Below are positions 7,141 to 35,233 of a stretch of 37,424 bases of DNA, piece after piece. The DNA comes from Pontiellaceae bacterium (GTDB lineage Bacteria > Verrucomicrobiota > Kiritimatiellia > Kiritimatiellales > Tichowtungiaceae): the NCBI GenBank assembly GCA_029939835.1, contig JAOZSE010000004.1:1-37424 (forward strand), written 5' to 3'. Each line of letters opens with the position of its first letter. The first letter of the stretch is position 1. The translations under genes and the position numbers were made by a program. The notes under the pieces are model-generated. The model was not told the DNA's origin and made no database searches. It saw only the letters and a list, made by a program, of their open reading frames with translations.

Positions 7141-7188
7141 ATAGACGACGCCCTTCTCGCCGAACTTGAAGAATCGTTGAATTCCTAA
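7141..7188 (+). pseudogene. Detached second copy of the yebC 3' end
   Basis: Read in frame, this stretch encodes IDDALLAELEESLNS and then TAA. It parallels the current end of YebC, IDDAILAELE. The 26-bp core (7144-7169) matches 6533-6558 at 24 positions. No start or upstream coding region is attached. The simplest reading is that the XRE gene entered the end of yebC and left one end copy on each side. Confidence 0.65.
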
Positions 7189-7191
7189 AAG

Positions 7192-7243
7192 GTAGGGACG
7201 CCTCTCCGAGGCGTCCGTGGACGGCTGGGACAGCCATCCCTAC
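7192..7243 (+). repeat. Bipartite palindromic repeat, GTAGGGACG...CCATCCCTAC
   Basis: This 52-bp element has hairpin one GGACGCC/GGCGTCC (loop TCTCCGA) and hairpin two GGCTGGGACAGCC. Its ends GTAGGGA/TCCCTAC are complementary. The left half recurs inverted at 35143-35162 after ntpK. It has the same plan as the 120-168 element but different stem sequences. Confidence 0.8.
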
Positions 7244-7720: not shown

Positions 7721-7740
7721 CTTTCCTGATTCCATTTTTC

Positions 7741-7794
7741 GCCGGGTGAGGACACCCGGCCTACATATGCTGTAGGCCCGATCCCCGACCGGGC
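7741..7794. repeat. Hairpin pair joined by CTAC...GTAG
   Basis: Hairpin GCCGGGTG/CACCCGGC with loop AGGA (7741-7760) is followed by CTAC, a 7-nt spacer, GTAG (7772-7775) and a second hairpin GGCCCG...CGGGC. This is the repeat grammar turned inside out. The same first hairpin occurs twice at 14979-15046. Confidence 0.75.
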
Positions 7795-14978: not shown

Positions 14979-15046
14979 GCCGAGTGAGGTCACTTGGCCT
15001 ACAGCTCAGAATAATGGATTTTGCAGGCCGGGTGACCTCACCCGGC
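14979..15046. repeat. Paired GCCGGGTG hairpins
   Basis: Hairpin GCCGAGTG/CACTTGGC with loop AGGT (14979-14998), then CTAC, a spacer, and hairpin GCCGGGTG/CACCCGGC with loop ACCT (15027-15046). The two are inverted relative to each other. The second has the same stem as the hairpin at 7741-7760. Confidence 0.75.
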
Positions 15047-15076
15047 GAAATAATAAGAACCGAAAAATCCGGAACC

Positions 15077-16401: not shown

Positions 16402-19400
16402 TTAGAGGTCGAAATAATACGACTGCGGATGGTGGGTGATGAGTGCGAAGGTGGAGACCTCCGGGTCGGCCATGAACAGTTCGGTGACGTTCAGGCCGAT
16501 GCGGTCGGTATCGAGCAGGTCGCAGCAGACTTTATTCATCGCCAAGTCGGGGCAGGCGGCGTAGCCGAAGCCGAAGCGGCTTTGATCGAGTTTGTTTTTC
16601 CGAACCTCGGAAAGCGTCAGATCGCCTTCGTCCGACCCCCAGGTTTCACGAATTTGTTTGTGTCCGTATTCCGCCAGTGCCTCGACGGTCATCACGGCCA
16701 GCCCGTGAAAGAGCAGGTAGTCCTGATAGCGGTCGGCCTCGCGCAGTTCGTGTTCTTTTTCCATGATTTTTGGCCCGAGCGTGACCGCCATTAGCGCGCA
16801 GATGTCGTTGTCCGGCCGGAAAAAGTCGGCCAGGCAGTGGTGCGGTGCTTTTTTCTGGCGCGGGAAGGGCATCGGAATTTCTTCACCGCTTGCCGGATTC
16901 GTCAGAGTTAAGGTGTCGCCTGCGGAGACGCAGTTGAAAAAGCCGTGAATGACTTTGGGTTCAAAAATATCCTCCGCCAGATTTTTCATCTCCTCGATTT
17001 TGGGGTACACCTCATCCTCAAGCAGTTTTTGATACTCCGCATCCGAGAGCGTTCCCTGTTTATAGCCCCACGCCCCCTTAATCAGCCCGTTCAGGTCGAG
17101 ATAGGGATATATATCACTAAGCGATATATCTTCCGTGACCCATGTTTTGATTTCGACATCGGGGATCGGTGCATCCGTTTTGATCGGCTCCGCCGGAGGC
17201 GTCGCCCCGCCAGAAGATTCCGATTCAGCCGGTGGGGCGAGTCTCTCCGAGCGATCCGATTCAGGCAGTTTGCCGGTCTCTTTGAGTTCCTGCATGGCGG
17301 CGAGTCCGGCGAAGGCATCTTTACAATAAATGACTCCACCCGAATAATGCGGGCGGCAGGCCTGTTCGACAAATTCCTCCGAAAGTGCGGCCCCGCCGAG
17401 CAGGACCGGCATCTTTAACCCGGCGTGCTCCAAAATCTTCATGTTTTCGGCCATGACGGCGGTGGATTTCACCAGCAGTCCGCTCATGCCGAGCGCGGTG
17501 GCGTTGTGTTCTTTCACCGCTTCGATCATCTGCTCAATCGGAATTTTGATGCCGAGGTCGACCGTGTCGAATCCGTTGTTGGATAGGATGATTCCGACGA
17601 GGTTTTTTCCAATATCGTGCACATCGCCCGCGACGGTGGCGAGCACAACCAGCGGCACTTGATTGCCCGCTTCGCTCTTTTTCATAAACGGTTTAATCCT
17701 ATCGACCGCGCGCTTCATCACTTCGGCGGATTTCAGCACAAAGGGCAACTGCATGGTTCCGTCGTTAAACAGTCGTCCGACCTCTTTCATCGCCGGAAGC
17801 ATGATCTCATTCAAAATATGTTCGGCGCTGTGTTCTTCGAGCAGATCGGGCACCGCCGGATCGAGCCACGGGGTTTTCCCCCGGATGATGGCGTCTGTGA
17901 GAATCTCATTGGCCGGGCGTTCTTCAACCGCTGTTTCTTCCACGCCCTGTACGTCTTCGAACAGGTTAATATAATTTTCGAGCGGATCGCCGTTGGTTTG
18001 ATCATTCGCCAGTAGCGCTTCCGCGCCTTTGCGCAGTTCGTCCGGAATCTCGTTGAGCGGAACAATGGCGGCGACATGGATGATACACGCATCCATTCCG
18101 GCCTGAATCGCCTGATGCAGGAAAACCGCATTGATCACCTTGCGCAGGGCGGGCTTGAGACCAAAGGAGATGTTGGAGAGTCCGAGCATCGTCCGGACGC
18201 CCGGCAATTCGGCCTTGATGCGCCGGATGGCTTCCAAGGTTTGGAAAGCGGCATCGCGCAAGGTATCGTCGCCGCTGCATATGGTGAAGGTGAGCGGGTC
18301 AATGAGCAGGTCATCAGCTTGCAGCCCGCGCTCAACGCAGAAATCAACCAGTCGTTTAGCAATGGCAAATTTTTCGTCCGCTGTCATTGCCATCCCTTTT
18401 TCGTCAATCGTCAGTCCGACCAGTGCCGCGCCGTAGCGGCGCGCCATTGGCACAACCTGTTCGGCACGGGTTCCGCCGTCTTCAAAGTTAATCGAGTTGA
18501 TCATCGCCCGCCCGCCGTAACACTTCAGCGCGTCTTCAATGACCTCGGCAGAGGTCGAGTCGATCATCATGGGTGCCAGGCATTCGCGCGCCATGCGCGG
18601 GACGAGCACCGCGATGTCTTTGCGTTCGTCGCGCCCGGCGTAGCCGCAACTCAGGTCAAGCACGTGAGCGCCGGTTTCCTCCTGCTCGGTTAAAATGTGA
18701 AACGCGTTCTCGTAGTCATCGGCCAGTAGGGTGTCGCGGAACTTTCTCGATCCGGTGGCGTTGGCGCGTTCGCCGATATAGAGCGGTGCGGGTTCCTGCG
18801 TCAGATCGATCGCTGAAAAGAGGCTGGCGACTTGGTTTAATGTGGGGCAGACGTCCTCGTCTGCCATTTTTTCGCAGGCGGGGGCGCCTGCGCCACGATT
18901 TACCAACTTACGCAGTTCGCGGATGTGTTCCGGGGTTGTTCCGCAACAACCGCCGACAATGGAGAGGCCATGCTCCCGGGCCAGCTCGCTGACTTTTTCG
19001 GCGAATTCTTTTGGCTCCAGAGGATAGAGAACGGTGCCATCCACCCGCGCTTCGGGCATGCCGGCGTTGGGCATGCAGGCGAGGCGGCCCGGCCAGATTG
19101 TGTTGAGCGTGTCGAGATGGTGCACCATGGCATCGGGGCCGGTGGCGCAGTTGAGGCCGAGCACATCAATCGGGTAGGGGGCGAGGATGGCGGCGGCGGC
19201 CGGGACGCTGGTGCCGACGAGCAGCGTGCCGGAGGCTTCGACCGTTACCGAAACATAGCGGACAATGTCGTTGTTCGGGCCGATAACATCATCAGCGGCG
19301 GCGAGCGCGGCTTTGATTTGGAGCGGATCCTGGCAGGTTTCAAAAAGCAGGCCATCTACACCGCCGTCGAGCAGGCCTTGAATTTGGATTTTATAAGCTT

Positions 19401-19806
19401 CGCAGAGTTCATCAAAGGTGATCTGCCCGAGCGAGGGCAGTTTGGTGCCGGGGCCGATGGAGCCAAAGACATAGCGCGGCTGTTCCGGGGTTGAAAATTC
19501 ATTGGCAGCCTCGCGCGCGATCTGCGCGGCGGCCTTGTTGATTTCATACGCGCGGTCAGAGAGACCGTATTCGCCGAGGGTAAGGGGTGAGGCGCCGAAC
19601 GTGTTGGTTTCGACGGCATCCGAACCGGCTTCAAAATAGGCGCGGTGCAGACCGCGAATGATTTCCGGCGCTGAAAGGTTCAGCCACTCGTTGCAGCCGT
19701 CGTATTCCTGCCACTGCTCGGGCGTAACGGCGCACCCCTGCAAGTACGTTCCGGCGGCACCGTCGAGCAGCAGAATCCCGTTTTCAAGTTTTTCCCTCAG
19801 TGTCAT
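16402..19806 (-). CDS. metH: Methionine synthase (cobalamin-dependent)
   Basis: This protein of about 1134 residues makes methionine from homocysteine and methyltetrahydrofolate. Domains in order are homocysteine/zinc (1-300; ligands C220, C287, C288), pterin-binding (about 340-600), B12 cap (about 630-710), B12-binding with DVHDIGKN (728-735, axial H730), and the SAM-dependent activation domain (about 885-1134, RFGFGYAACPD near 1077). Two interdomain linkers carry DNA repeats in frame: residues 304-322, and about 855-872. The ATG at 19806 begins the conserved MTLREKLENG; no ribosome binding site is evident. It is monocistronic, with no metF or S-box nearby. Confidence 0.95.
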   Translation of the reverse strand: MTLREKLENGILLLDGAAGTYLQGCAVTPEQWQEYDGCNEWLNLSAPEIIRGLHRAYFEAGSDAVETNTFGASPLTLGEYGLSDRAYEINKAAAQIAREAANEFSTPEQPRYVFGSIGPGTKLPSLGQITFDELCEAYKIQIQGLLDGGVDGLLFETCQDPLQIKAALAAADDVIGPNNDIVRYVSVTVEASGTLLVGTSVPAAAAILAPYPIDVLGLNCATGPDAMVHHLDTLNTIWPGRLACMPNAGMPEARVDGTVLYPLEPKEFAEKVSELAREHGLSIVGGCCGTTPEHIRELRKLVNRGAGAPACEKMADEDVCPTLNQVASLFSAIDLTQEPAPLYIGERANATGSRKFRDTLLADDYENAFHILTEQEETGAHVLDLSCGYAGRDERKDIAVLVPRMARECLAPMMIDSTSAEVIEDALKCYGGRAMINSINFEDGGTRAEQVVPMARRYGAALVGLTIDEKGMAMTADEKFAIAKRLVDFCVERGLQADDLLIDPLTFTICSGDDTLRDAAFQTLEAIRRIKAELPGVRTMLGLSNISFGLKPALRKVINAVFLHQAIQAGMDACIIHVAAIVPLNEIPDELRKGAEALLANDQTNGDPLENYINLFEDVQGVEETAVEERPANEILTDAIIRGKTPWLDPAVPDLLEEHSAEHILNEIMLPAMKEVGRLFNDGTMQLPFVLKSAEVMKRAVDRIKPFMKKSEAGNQVPLVVLATVAGDVHDIGKNLVGIILSNNGFDTVDLGIKIPIEQMIEAVKEHNATALGMSGLLVKSTAVMAENMKILEHAGLKMPVLLGGAALSEEFVEQACRPHYSGGVIYCKDAFAGLAAMQELKETGKLPESDRSERLAPPAESESSGGATPPAEPIKTDAPIPDVEIKTWVTEDISLSDIYPYLDLNGLIKGAWGYKQGTLSDAEYQKLLEDEVYPKIEEMKNLAEDIFEPKVIHGFFNCVSAGDTLTLTNPASGEEIPMPFPRQKKAPHHCLADFFRPDNDICALMAVTLGPKIMEKEHELREADRYQDYLLFHGLAVMTVEALAEYGHKQIRETWGSDEGDLTLSEVRKNKLDQSRFGFGYAACPDLAMNKVCCDLLDTDRIGLNVTELFMADPEVSTFALITHHPQSYYFDL
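17190..17241. repeat. GC-rich hairpin repeat inside metH (second linker)
   Basis: TCGCCCCGCC (17202-17211) pairs with GGTGGGGCGA (17231-17240) at nine of ten positions. The flank 17190-17209 is the partner of the 20-mer at 15787-15806. It encodes an Ala/Pro/Ser/Gly-rich linker between the B12 and activation domains. Confidence 0.6.
18842..18896. repeat. Bipartite palindromic repeat in frame inside metH (first linker)
   Basis: Outer GTGG (18842-18845) and CCAC (18893-18896) enclose two perfect hairpins: GGCAGACG/CGTCTGCC with loop TCCT (18846-18865), and GCAGGCG/CGCCTGC with loop GGGG (18874-18891). The element is 55 bp and lies wholly within the coding frame, giving residues 304-322 between the homocysteine and pterin domains. 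Confidence 0.85.
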
Positions 19807-28430: not shown

Positions 28431-30161
28431 ATGAACTTAGGAAAAATTGTCGGTGTAAACGGAAATCTGCTGACGGTGGAGTTTGAGAAACCCGTCATTC
28501 AGAACGAAGTGGGCTTCGCCCGGCTCGGCGACATCAGCCTGAAGTCGGAAGTGATTCGTGTACGCGGCAGCCACGCCGAACTGCAGGTGTTTGAAGCTAC
28601 CACGGGCCTTAGGGTTGGCGATCAGGTGGAGTTTACCGGCGAACTGCTCGCAGTGGAGCTTGGCCCGGGCCTGCTGACACAGGTGTTCGACGGACTGCAG
28701 AACCCGCTCCCGGCGCTGGCCGAGGAGTGCGGCTTTTTCCTGCAGCGCGGTAAATACCTGCAGGCGCTTCCGCGCGAAACCAAATGGAAATTTACGCCCG
28801 CAGTCAAAGCCGGCGATTCCGTACTGGCGGGTGATGCCGTCGGCTGTGTTCCGGAAGGAATTTTTGATCATAAAATCATGGTGCCGTTCCGCCTGCACGG
28901 ACGGCTGACGGTTAAAGAGGTGGCGGCCGAAGGTGAATATACCGTGGAGGACGTTGTGGCCAGGGTCGCGGACGAAAAAGGTCGCGAATACGAAGTCCGC
29001 ATGATGCAGGTCTGGCCCGTCAAGGTGCCGGTCAAGTGCTACGCCGAGCGGTTGCGTCCGTCCGAGCCGCTCATCACCAAAGTGCGCATTGTGGACACGT
29101 TCTTTCCGGTCGCGCGCGGCGGAACCTATTGTATTCCCGGTCCGTTTGGCGCGGGTAAAACCGTTTTGCAGCAGATTACCAGCCGCCACGCGGACGTGGA
29201 CGTGGTCATCATCGCGGCCTGCGGCGAGCGCGCGGGCGAAGTGGTCGAAACACTGCGCGAATTTCCCGAGCTGACTGACCCGCGCACCGGCAAAAGCCTG
29301 ATGGAGCGCACGCTCATCATTTGCAACACCAGTTCGATGCCGGTGGCCGCGCGCGAAGCGTCTGTCTATACGGCGGTGACCATTGCTGAATACTACCGCC
29401 AGATGGGACTCAACGTTCTGCTGCTGGCCGACTCGACCTCACGCTGGGCGCAGGCCCTGCGCGAAATGTCCGGACGTCTTGAAGAAATTCCCGGCGAAGA
29501 GGCGTTCCCGGCCTATCTCGAATCAGTGATCGCCGCCTTTTATGAGCGCGGCGGCGTGGTGCGCCTGCACGATGGTTCGACCGGTTCGGTGACGATCGGC
29601 GGAACGGTTTCGCCCGCAGGCGGCAACTTTGAAGAGCCGGTCACACAGAGTACGCTCAAAGTGGTGGGGGCCTTCCACGGGCTTTCGCGCGCGCGTTCCG
29701 ACGCCCGGCGCTATCCGGCCATTGACCCGCTCGACAGCTGGAGTAAATACCCGAGCTTGGTGGATGCCGAAGAACTCGAACTTGCCCGTCACTTCCTGCG
29801 CGAAGGCAACGAAGTCAACCAGATGATGAAGGTGGTCGGCGAGGAGGGTACCTCGCTGGACGACTTCATTGTTTATCTGAAAGGCGAGTATCTGGATGAC
29901 GTCTATCTGCAGCAGAATGCATTCCACGAAGTGGACGCCGCCACGCCTGTGGAACGGCAGAAGCATGTATTCAGTGCGCTCGCGAAAATCCTGCGCACAA
30001 AAATGAAGTTTGAAAGCAAAGAGGCCGCGCGCGGCTTTTTCCAGAGTCTGACACAGGCCACGCGCGACTGGAACCAGATCGCTATGGAGATACCCGAATT
30101 TAAACAACAGGAGGAGCAGCTCGACGCCATGCTCGCGGAGGTTACGAGCTACGAAACGTAG
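28431..30161 (+). CDS. ntpA: V-type ATPase catalytic subunit A
   Basis: The 576-residue catalytic subunit hydrolyses or makes ATP in the V1 head. The P-loop GPFGAGKT lies at residues 237-244. The non-homologous insert of A subunits (about 115-200) precedes it, then ACGERAGEVVETLREFPEL, LLADSTSRWAQALREMSGRLEEIPGEE and the ordered C-terminal domain follow. The stop TAG at 30159-30161 is the second to fourth base of a GTAGGACAGG repeat (30158-30179). The ATG at 28431 has no strong ribosome binding site. Confidence 0.97.
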   Translation: MNLGKIVGVNGNLLTVEFEKPVIQNEVGFARLGDISLKSEVIRVRGSHAELQVFEATTGLRVGDQVEFTGELLAVELGPGLLTQVFDGLQNPLPALAEECGFFLQRGKYLQALPRETKWKFTPAVKAGDSVLAGDAVGCVPEGIFDHKIMVPFRLHGRLTVKEVAAEGEYTVEDVVARVADEKGREYEVRMMQVWPVKVPVKCYAERLRPSEPLITKVRIVDTFFPVARGGTYCIPGPFGAGKTVLQQITSRHADVDVVIIAACGERAGEVVETLREFPELTDPRTGKSLMERTLIICNTSSMPVAAREASVYTAVTIAEYYRQMGLNVLLLADSTSRWAQALREMSGRLEEIPGEEAFPAYLESVIAAFYERGGVVRLHDGSTGSVTIGGTVSPAGGNFEEPVTQSTLKVVGAFHGLSRARSDARRYPAIDPLDSWSKYPSLVDAEELELARHFLREGNEVNQMMKVVGEEGTSLDDFIVYLKGEYLDDVYLQQNAFHEVDAATPVERQKHVFSALAKILRTKMKFESKEAARGFFQSLTQATRDWNQIAMEIPEFKQQEEQLDAMLAEVTSYET

Positions 30162-30401
30162 GACAGGCTTCCAGCCTGTTCAAGCAAAGGAGAGAGAGAG
30201 TTTTATCCATAGATGTTCGCAGATGGGAGAGAAAGTAGGGTAAGCGTTTCGCTTGCCTGTTCACTTGGCAGGAAAGGGTTTTTCACAACCGCTTCGCTTG
30301 AGGAAGTCAGAGAAACAGCCGAGAAATAAAGAGGAAGAGTTTTGACCGCGAAAAAACGCGAATAAACGGGCGATAGCCCGTTTATGAACGGAGAGAAAAA
30401 T
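30158..30401. other. Repeat patchwork between ntpA and ntpB
   Basis: This 240-bp gap inside the operon has no gene. It holds a left-half copy of the 120-168 repeat (30158-30179), an element GTAGGGTAAGCG/CGCTTGCC (30235-30256), the word ATCCATAGATGTTCGCAGAT, an AACGCGAATAAACG-type word, and a perfect 8-bp hairpin AAACGGGC/GCCCGTTT (30364-30383) ending 18 bases before the ntpB start codon. Confidence 0.7.
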
Positions 30402-32807: not shown

Positions 32808-34603
32808 TTGTGAAAATGAAAAAGCTGACGTTGCTGTGTACGCGTTCCTCGCGAGAGGAGACGCTGGCGACGTTGCGCGAACTGGGCGTGGTGCACTTGC
32901 AGCACATTCAGCCGCCGGAAGGGGCCGATCTGGAAGAAGCCCGCAACCTTTTTGCTCATTTGCAGCGCGCGCTCGAAGTGCTTCCGAAACATACGCACAC
33001 CGCACCGTCAGGCAAAACGCCGCACGAAACCGTCAAAGCGGTCTGGGAGCTGATCCACCGCAAACAGGCGCTGACTGAGCAGATTGAAGCGCTCGACATG
33101 GAAATCCGTCAGTACGAACCGTTTGGCAGTTTTTCGCCTGAAACCGTCCATGAGCTGGCGGAGCGGGGCGTGACGGTCAGGCTGTGCAAACTGCCGCTCA
33201 AAGAGATACCGGATATTCCCGAAGGGTTTACTCTCGCTGAACTGAGCCGCGACCGCAGCACCATGTACGCGGCACTGATCGGCCGCGGGCAATTTTCTAT
33301 TGAAGTCGAAGAAGTTGGTCTTCCGGAATGTTCGCTCGACGACATGAATCGGCAGCTCGAAACGCTTCGCTCGGAACTGGAGCAGACGGATACGGAATTC
33401 CACAGCTTTGCCGGTGACCGGACGGTTGTGGTCGCGCTGGCGGGCGATGCCGAAGACCGCGTTCATTATCTCGAAGCCCGCACCGGCATGGGCGCGGCCG
33501 AAGCGGTAACTTATTTGCGCGGATTTTTCCCCGCCGAGCAGGAGAAGGAGCTTCGTGAGACCGCTGCAAAACGGGGCTGGGGTGCGCTGGTCGAGGAACC
33601 GGCGGCTGATGATCCGGTGCCGACGCTGCTGCGTAACCCGAAGTGGGTCTCTCCGATCAAAGCCGCGTTGGATCTTATTGATGTTGTGCCTGGGTATAGG
33701 GAACTCGATGTAAGCGCCCTGTTCCTGATTTTCCTCAGTATCTTTTTTGCCTTTATTATCGGTGATGCGGGATACGGGTTCCTTTTCATCGGGCTAACTC
33801 TTTTCGGGAAATTCAAAACCAAAGGGAAAAAGGCGGCTCAACCCGGACTGAATCTAATGCTGATTATGAGTGCCGCGACGGTTGTTTTCGGAGTGTTGAC
33901 CGGAAACTACTTTGGTATTCCCATTGAGAGCTTGCCCCGGCTGTTACAGATGCTGACCAACTCTTATATGACCGGGTGGACAGGAACGATCTGGAATCCG
34001 GATTTGGCGGCAAGTCATATCATGTTGATTTGTTTTTCGATAGCGGTGGTACATTTATCCATCGCGCATTTGTGGAATATTGTTCGGAAAATCAATTCAT
34101 GCGAAGCCTTGGTGGATGCGGGTTGGCTGTTTTGCACATGGTCACTTTACACCATTGTGTTGGAGCTTGTTCTTGATGTCGCTCTGTATCCATTCGTTCA
34201 AACGGTAAAGCTACCCTTGATTGGAGCAGGTGTCCTTTTCATAATCATCGGACTGCTGTTAACCAAGGCCTATATTGGGATCATTACCCTTCTTCTCGAT
34301 ATCATCAGTAATTTTGTGGATATCATCTCTTACATTCGCCTGTACGCTGTGGGCGCGGCGTCGCTCGCCGTTGCTCAAGCGTTCAACGAGATGGCCATGG
34401 GTGTTGGGTTTGACGGGATGGCTTCGTTGGGAGCTGCTCTTATTCTTTTCGCCGGACACGGATTGAACATCATTCTTGGAGCCATGGGTGTGATGGTTCA
34501 CGGCATCCGCCTGAACACACTTGAATTTTCAGGGCATGCCGGTGTCGAGTGGGCCGGAATTCACTTCAACCCTTTTAGAAAAAAAGCAGTATTAGAAAAG
34601 TAG
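32804..34603 (+). CDS. ntpI: V-type ATPase subunit I (membrane stator)
   Basis: The 599-residue protein has a soluble N-terminal half (1-295) with coiled coils and a membrane half with seven or eight helices from about 303. Conserved segments include AFIIGDAGYGFLFIGLTLF, FSIAVVHLSIAHLWN and FVDIISYIRLYAVGAASLAVAQAFN; the arginine in SYIRLYA is the ion-channel residue. The ATG at 32804 overlaps the ntpD stop. The TAG stop (34601-34603) is part of a GTAGGACAGG repeat. Bases 33700-34600 look poorer in GC than the first half. Confidence 0.93.
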   Translation: MIVKMKKLTLLCTRSSREETLATLRELGVVHLQHIQPPEGADLEEARNLFAHLQRALEVLPKHTHTAPSGKTPHETVKAVWELIHRKQALTEQIEALDMEIRQYEPFGSFSPETVHELAERGVTVRLCKLPLKEIPDIPEGFTLAELSRDRSTMYAALIGRGQFSIEVEEVGLPECSLDDMNRQLETLRSELEQTDTEFHSFAGDRTVVVALAGDAEDRVHYLEARTGMGAAEAVTYLRGFFPAEQEKELRETAAKRGWGALVEEPAADDPVPTLLRNPKWVSPIKAALDLIDVVPGYRELDVSALFLIFLSIFFAFIIGDAGYGFLFIGLTLFGKFKTKGKKAAQPGLNLMLIMSAATVVFGVLTGNYFGIPIESLPRLLQMLTNSYMTGWTGTIWNPDLAASHIMLICFSIAVVHLSIAHLWNIVRKINSCEALVDAGWLFCTWSLYTIVLELVLDVALYPFVQTVKLPLIGAGVLFIIIGLLLTKAYIGIITLLLDIISNFVDIISYIRLYAVGAASLAVAQAFNEMAMGVGFDGMASLGAALILFAGHGLNIILGAMGVMVHGIRLNTLEFSGHAGVEWAGIHFNPFRKKAVLEK

Positions 34604-34647
34604 GACAGGCTTCCAGCCTGTCCAGCCAGCCAGGATGGCTGTCCTAC
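34600..34647 (+). repeat. Bipartite palindromic repeat, GTAGG...CCTAC type, second full copy
   Basis: A 48-bp element with hairpin one GGACAGGC/GCCTGTCC and hairpin two AGCCAGCCAGGATGGCT, ending GTCCTAC. Its first 21 bases equal those of the 120-168 copy. It supplies the stop of ntpI and ends 21 bp before the ntpK start. Confidence 0.85.
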
Positions 34648-35142: not shown

Positions 35143-35162
35143 GCTCGGAGAGGCGTCCCTAC
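35143..35162 (-). repeat. Half copy of the GTAGGGACGCC repeat
   Basis: On the minus strand it starts GGTAGGGACGCCTCTCCGAG, the same as 7191-7210. It directly follows the ntpK stop codon. Confidence 0.75.
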
Positions 35163-35233
35163 CTTTCTGGGTTTAATTTCCCACCGGTTTTTTCCAGACA
35201 TCAGGCCGTTTTGCGGGTAATTTCGCACGCACT

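Follow-up and report, generated by a model that had tools for sequence, protein, structure and literature searches.

The 55-bp palindromic element that lies in frame within the metH gene of a Pontiellaceae bacterium is a REP dimer, BIME-like, GTGG-footed and non-autonomous. The window, the whole stretch of 37,424 nucleotides analysed here, comes from a 1.93-Mb, 87%-complete MAG (G000). The dimer probably entered the fast-evolving linker of MetH, where it is translated, and was probably moved in trans by a REP-associated tyrosine transposase, or RAYT, most likely of the lineage embedded in frame in the cca gene. More broadly, the data lean towards a widespread class of stop-free REP-RAYT-REP elements that live inside housekeeping enzymes, use the same linker sites, and seed translated REP peptides into other genes, such as that of MetH.

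The 55-mer, GTGGGGCAGACGTCCTCGTCTGCCATTTTTTCGCAGGCGGGGGCGCCTGCGCCAC, starts exactly at window position 18842 and ends at 18896, and is listed without strand. It is composed of GTGG, hairpin 1 (GGCAGACG-TCCT-CGTCTGCC, 18846 to 18865, unstranded), the spacer ATTTTTT, hairpin 2 (CGCAGGCG-GGGG-CGCCTGCG, 18873 to 18892, unstranded), and CCAC. The two hairpins are inverted, each has a perfect 8-bp stem, and a GTGG/CCAC stem closes both. The GT[AG]G foot that marks REPs of the GTAG superfamily at a short hairpin is thus present as GTGG on both ends. When folded as single-stranded DNA, the 55-mer reached -22.5 kcal/mol (z = -6.5), and 0 of 200 shuffles equalled it. Both the sequence and the folding agree with an earlier note on this DNA, which had described a 55-bp palindromic repeat with two perfect hairpins and GTGG/CCAC ends. 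The dimer has no stop codon in any of the six frames. This openness was also seen in 29% of its dinucleotide shuffles and in only 4.7% of the 55-mers of the window. The result indicates that the openness is largely due to composition, and the case for a special adaptation is weak.

The host gene, metH, is located at 16402 to 19806 on the minus strand and encodes a cobalamin-dependent methionine synthase of 1134 aa, as identified by Pfam and by the PDB relatives 8g3h and 8ssc. The Pfam domains S-methyl_trans and Pterin_bind cover residues 12-302 and 345-577. Since the first ends at 302 and the second begins at 345, residues 304-322, counted from the ATG at 19806, fall in the linker, and these domain limits bear out the proposed position between the homocysteine and pterin domains. 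Almost all of these residues are encoded by the 55-mer. The in-frame foreign peptide, RGAGAPACEKMADEDVCPT, corresponds to codons 304-322 at 18841 to 18897 on the minus strand. The element had been thought to have a length that is a multiple of three; the net change is indeed in frame, but the element itself is 55 bp, and the in-frame MetH segment is 57 nt.

The linker was compared among relatives with a readable linker, which leaves out G002 and G010. The RGAGAPACEKMADEDVCPT peptide was absent from the MetH of congeners, of order- and class-level relatives, and of the PDB structures; 8g3h and 8ssc align across the linker without it. This is consistent with a peptide foreign to MetH, and the same peptide was not seen in distant phyla, as far as these order- and class-level relatives and PDB proteins reach. 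From the GGCCG anchor to the GER anchor, the linker usually spans 52 residues in congeners and spans 60 in G000. This indicates that about 10 ancestral residues are missing in G000, and the exact inserted unit therefore cannot be read off. The flanks had been expected to be intact in relatives, which is not simply the case. No exact empty site was found among the congeners, which are about 80% identical and have replaced linkers.

The MetH linker is hypervariable within the genus. A different REP dimer, EKRADKSVRPTCGADTPVCSS, was found in the linker of G011, two REP dimers with a tandem duplication in that of G012, and other short repeats in those of G001, G007, and G008. These different repeats indicate that the linker is a recurrent landing pad. 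The presence of a REP in MetH changed at least 3 times on a MetH tree made without the linker, and the REP types in the linkers of G011 and G012 match the cca-RAYTs of the same genomes. The reading of a repeat in frame within the linker thus holds, but the insertion is not a lone event, as unrelated repeats have entered the same linker in congeners. The metH gene of G011 (L026) carries a single in-frame TAA and is otherwise full-length, which may be an assembly error or decay.

A pattern search of G000 returned nine exact or near matches to the element. With a covariance model, eight near-identical places scored at least 70 bits, all of them dimers. They represent seven loci, because C78 and C153 share identical flanks. 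The recurrence at eight places shows that the metH element is not a chance palindrome. It also fits the habit of REPs to be repeated, often as inverted dimers, though the copy number is low. Six of the seven strong loci are in-frame copies inside genes, namely metH, alaS (two copies), cca (two copies), and tsaB, and the C78/C153 locus is the only apparently intergenic strong copy. REPs are mainly extragenic, which does not apply to this family, but intragenic members have been described already (PMC3733652). In addition, recJ holds a half copy and hisH a diverged copy. The copies lie across unrelated genes in different frames and orientations, being read as GAGAPACEKMADE, VAQAPPPAKKWQTR, or GADAPVC, so the DNA identity is conserved and not the peptide. 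By eye, no target-site duplication was seen at the junctions, and no fixed target was recognised.

Other repeats were observed in the window. A second family of REPs is represented on the plus strand by GTAGGACAGGCTTCCAGCCTGT at 120 to 141, of the kind that flanks the xseA-embedded RAYT of G000, and by two GTAG copies at 30158 to 30179 and 34600 to 34621, whose feet provide the TAG stop of an ATP synthase A-subunit ORF and of a V-type ATPase I-like ORF, respectively. The GTAG-footed REPs abut ORF ends with TAG serving as the stop, whereas the GTGG-footed element offers none. The palindrome TTCCAANNNTTGGAA (window 18232-18246) is highly iterated across the genus and the class, with 113 sites in G000 and up to 1339 in G048, against 0-3 for the reversed control. 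It frequently falls within coding sequence (FQTLE/FQCLE), and some genomes have it in arrays with a spacing of about 31 bp. Two further palindromic repeat families are GGTAGGGACGCCTCTCCGAG (7188-7210 and 35144-35166) and CGGGTGAGGACACCCGGCCTACA (7737-7765 and 15022-15050).

The two cca copies of the dimer flank a RAYT domain (PF01797) within the open frame of the CCA-adding enzyme. The RAYT sits between C58:9426 and C58:10136 with the dimer on both flanks, as is typical of a cognate RAYT bordered by its own REPs. The Pfam domain order in one frame is PolyA_pol, Y1_Tnp, and HD. Among 14 genomes of the genus, the RAYT was found at this site in G000, G008, G011, and G012, and a solo dimer in G007. 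Neither was found in the other nine, of which G001 has a somewhat longer linker; the sequence is LMKNPSRALAYT-like in most non-carriers, and the interruption is frame-preserving. At E values up to 1e-7, the metH-type family was detected in these five genomes (G000, G008, G011, G012, and G007) and, by a single weak match, in G003, a congener recorded as Kiritimatiellaeota bacterium NIOZ-UU71 (contig JACNKZ010000064.1), which places the genus in Kiritimatiellota. The family is therefore present in all 5 genomes whose cca site holds a RAYT or its remnant versus 1/9 of the others, this one by the weak match (Fisher p = 0.003, among related species). The metH element is thus no lone curiosity but one of seven loci of a family that goes with a RAYT lying in frame inside cca. 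Carriers of the cca-RAYT are scattered over the MetH tree of the congeners, which fits either an ancestral cca-RAYT with later losses or repeated gains. G000 also contains three standalone RAYT-like genes besides other PF01797 matches, and any of these could act on the element instead.

The priA and xseA genes of G000 each hold a further RAYT embedded in the same manner, with REPs of other types on its flanks. In xseA, ten congeners have a YLNTRDDIDLMIVGRGGGS-type sequence, and G000, G007, and G012 have YLN...[REP-RAYT-REP]...IDVLIVGRGGGS; G001 has a short REP-like remnant. All interruptions of xseA are frame-preserving, and empty cca and xseA sites are present in most congeners. A profile built from 16 embedded RAYTs was used to search for relatives, with matches in many phyla. 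Of 72 readable matches, about 20 sit in long ORFs in which a host enzyme can be recognised. Overall, in-frame RAYTs were found in priA, xseA, cca, hypF, leuS, valS, carB, radical SAM, and restriction-modification genes of Kiritimatiellota, Verrucomicrobiota, Planctomycetota, Bacteroidota, Ignavibacteriota, Pseudomonadota, Methylomirabilota, and Chloroflexota. In Pfam, host domains surround Y1_Tnp in one frame for restriction enzymes (Eco57I/TaqI-type, MmeI-type, and HsdR), CarB, LeuRS, ValRS, HypF, ExoVII, PriA, the CCA enzyme, a B12-radical SAM protein (DUF4080), a dehydrogenase, and a FabA-like protein. For DUF1156 methylases and an adenosine deaminase, the host domain was confirmed on one side of Y1_Tnp only. 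The REP-encoded peptide is usually identical on both sides of the RAYT, such as NTGFQPVR in CarB. Sites recur, with one region of LeuRS used in four genomes and ValRS and CarB sites in two each.

In the phylum-level group, such RAYTs were found in 98 of 289 genomes. Roughly one third of about 150 RAYTs listed are in ORFs of at least 400 aa, by a hand count that covers both verified and unverified ORFs. Embedded RAYTs are also present in the 7-contig genome G007 and in the isolate record Pontiellaceae B12227 (L198). The isolate example indicates that embedding is not only a MAG artefact. In G005 (L072), a different RAYT type is followed by the REP peptide VGPTSLSGE and continues in frame into an apparent 5-formyltetrahydrofolate cyclo-ligase. 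REP-type inserts were also seen at about one position in the chorismate-binding (PabB-like) enzymes of G008, G007, and G011 (L292, L290, L291, L294). The AlaRS linker before FPADEAFKLYDTYGFP has a different insert in each species, as seen in G003 (L119), G013 (L137), G004 (L115), and G012 (L122); that of G003 is about 60 aa and unlike the REPs seen in this analysis.

The HUH motif NH[IFV]H is present in 16/16 embedded RAYTs as NHVH or NHIH, and the tyrosine at the catalytic position is kept in 15/16. YIxxNP is found in most of them, with NP lost from three xseA copies. The priA and xseA copies carry a WQ motif, and the others carry WM, WL, or WK. REPs are also found in frame within the RAYT gene itself, as VDATPSS/VDAPPSS in the priA RAYTs of G003, G007, and G010, and between HUH and Y in the L172 RAYT. 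Between embedded RAYTs of one host gene, the raw pN/pS was 0.16-0.46 with synonymous changes near saturation, and the corrected ratio was 0.05-0.18 where computable. By these substitution ratios, purifying selection acts on the embedded RAYTs that were tested. A tree of 108 RAYTs needs at least 18 changes of the embedded state, against a shuffled mean of 34. The result indicates that embedding recurs yet clusters, and the number of changes leaves a single origin of embedding unsupported. A phage origin of the RAYT was likewise set aside, as a PHROGs search gave no match.

The purifying selection also speaks for the main rival explanation, in which the embedded RAYT and REP segments have been domesticated for a new host function, such as the binding of hairpin single-stranded DNA in PriA, XseA, or restriction enzymes. 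Several of the host proteins act on DNA, and a given host tends to carry one RAYT clade. However, LeuRS, ValRS, CarB, HypF, and radical SAM enzymes are hosts as well, the presence of embedded RAYTs is patchy among congeners, RAYTs of two clades that are not related share about one site in priA, and REPs occur without a RAYT in MetH, AlaRS, and PabB. The host diversity and patchiness argue for selfish persistence, and domestication is considered unlikely. Far less probable is that the insert is removed from the RNA or the protein, as an intron, by bypass, or in an intein-like way, so that the frame would be irrelevant. Inserts of up to about 250 aa in alaS, cca, and priA, single-copy genes that are presumably essential, would fit this idea. 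However, the examined inserts, both short and RAYT-sized, keep the host frame at both junctions, which would be needless if they were removed. Rfam found no intron match on 10 loci, only a tRNA, and the Pfam matches contain only Y1_Tnp and host domains with no intein splicing domain, so that the intron, bypass, and intein ideas are unsupported. Inteins and homing endonucleases resemble the embedded RAYTs as mobile in-frame coding inserts with recurrent sites in conserved genes, where the RAYTs would persist much like inteins. Unlike inteins, the RAYT inserts have no splicing domain and apparently stay in the protein. Ordinary drift of the variable linker into a palindrome by chance, although it would fit the hypervariability within the genus, is refuted for practical purposes by the multi-copy result, with near-identical DNA in unrelated genes, other frames, and other orientations.

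The preferred reading is thus a REP dimer that would be moved in trans by a RAYT, a Y1/HUH single-strand transposase, likeliest of the lineage now inside cca. With a GTGG foot lacking TAG and a dimer stop-free in six frames, net multiple-of-three insertions at tolerant linkers would survive selection, and the MetH product would carry about 19 additional residues. REP-RAYT-REP units without a stop codon would in the same way become an extra domain of the host enzyme, from which precise loss would be hard and in which host expression would be guaranteed. Against this mechanism, no transposition was observed, the copy number is low for REPs, and the genome is an incomplete MAG.

Di Nocera et al. 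2013 (PMC3733652) described REP dimers inside ORFs that encode 20-30 aa and proposed linker tolerance. The MetH insertion is therefore an instance of a known phenomenon. The GTAG-tagged REPs of that study share with the metH family the GT[AG]G foot, the inverted dimers, the occurrence in ORFs, the RAYT association, and the PVC group, and include the GTGG-footed GTAG-20 of Opitutus terrae. They are mostly intergenic, whereas the strong copies here are mostly intragenic, of low copy number, and accompanied by a RAYT inside a host gene. The same study describes CGTC repeats without a dedicated transposase, unlike the metH family, which goes with a RAYT, and cites Rickettsia elements in frame within genes. 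The Rickettsia palindromic elements (RPE) are alike in being palindromic repeats tolerated in frame in coding genes, although homology to the metH family is not established. By motif, the embedded RAYTs resemble subclass 2.4 of RAYT/TnpAREP (RAYT group 4), with NH[IV]H, a YIxxNP-like motif in most of them, GT[AG]G...C[TC]AC REPs, and in-frame internal REPs, the REP type and internal REPs having been described for this subclass by Quentin et al. 2018 (PMC6006769). Proteins of unexpected length were left out of that survey, being taken for gene fusions or misannotations, whereas here such long ORFs encode host enzymes that an in-frame RAYT interrupts, and they recur in several phyla. No description of RAYT genes embedded in host ORFs was found in the literature searched, with most subscription journals outside its scope. 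An in-frame REP in MetH is thus known in kind, and a RAYT in frame inside host enzymes appears undescribed.

These findings suggest that translation can render mobile DNA harmless, with the linkers of essential enzymes serving as landing pads. Inside an essential protein, a transposase may survive as a domain that is hard to lose, and the long RAYT proteins dismissed as fusions or misannotations may be genuine. As a source of novel linker peptides and of fused domains, the elements are open to testing, and they provide natural embedded REP/RAYT pairs for biochemistry.
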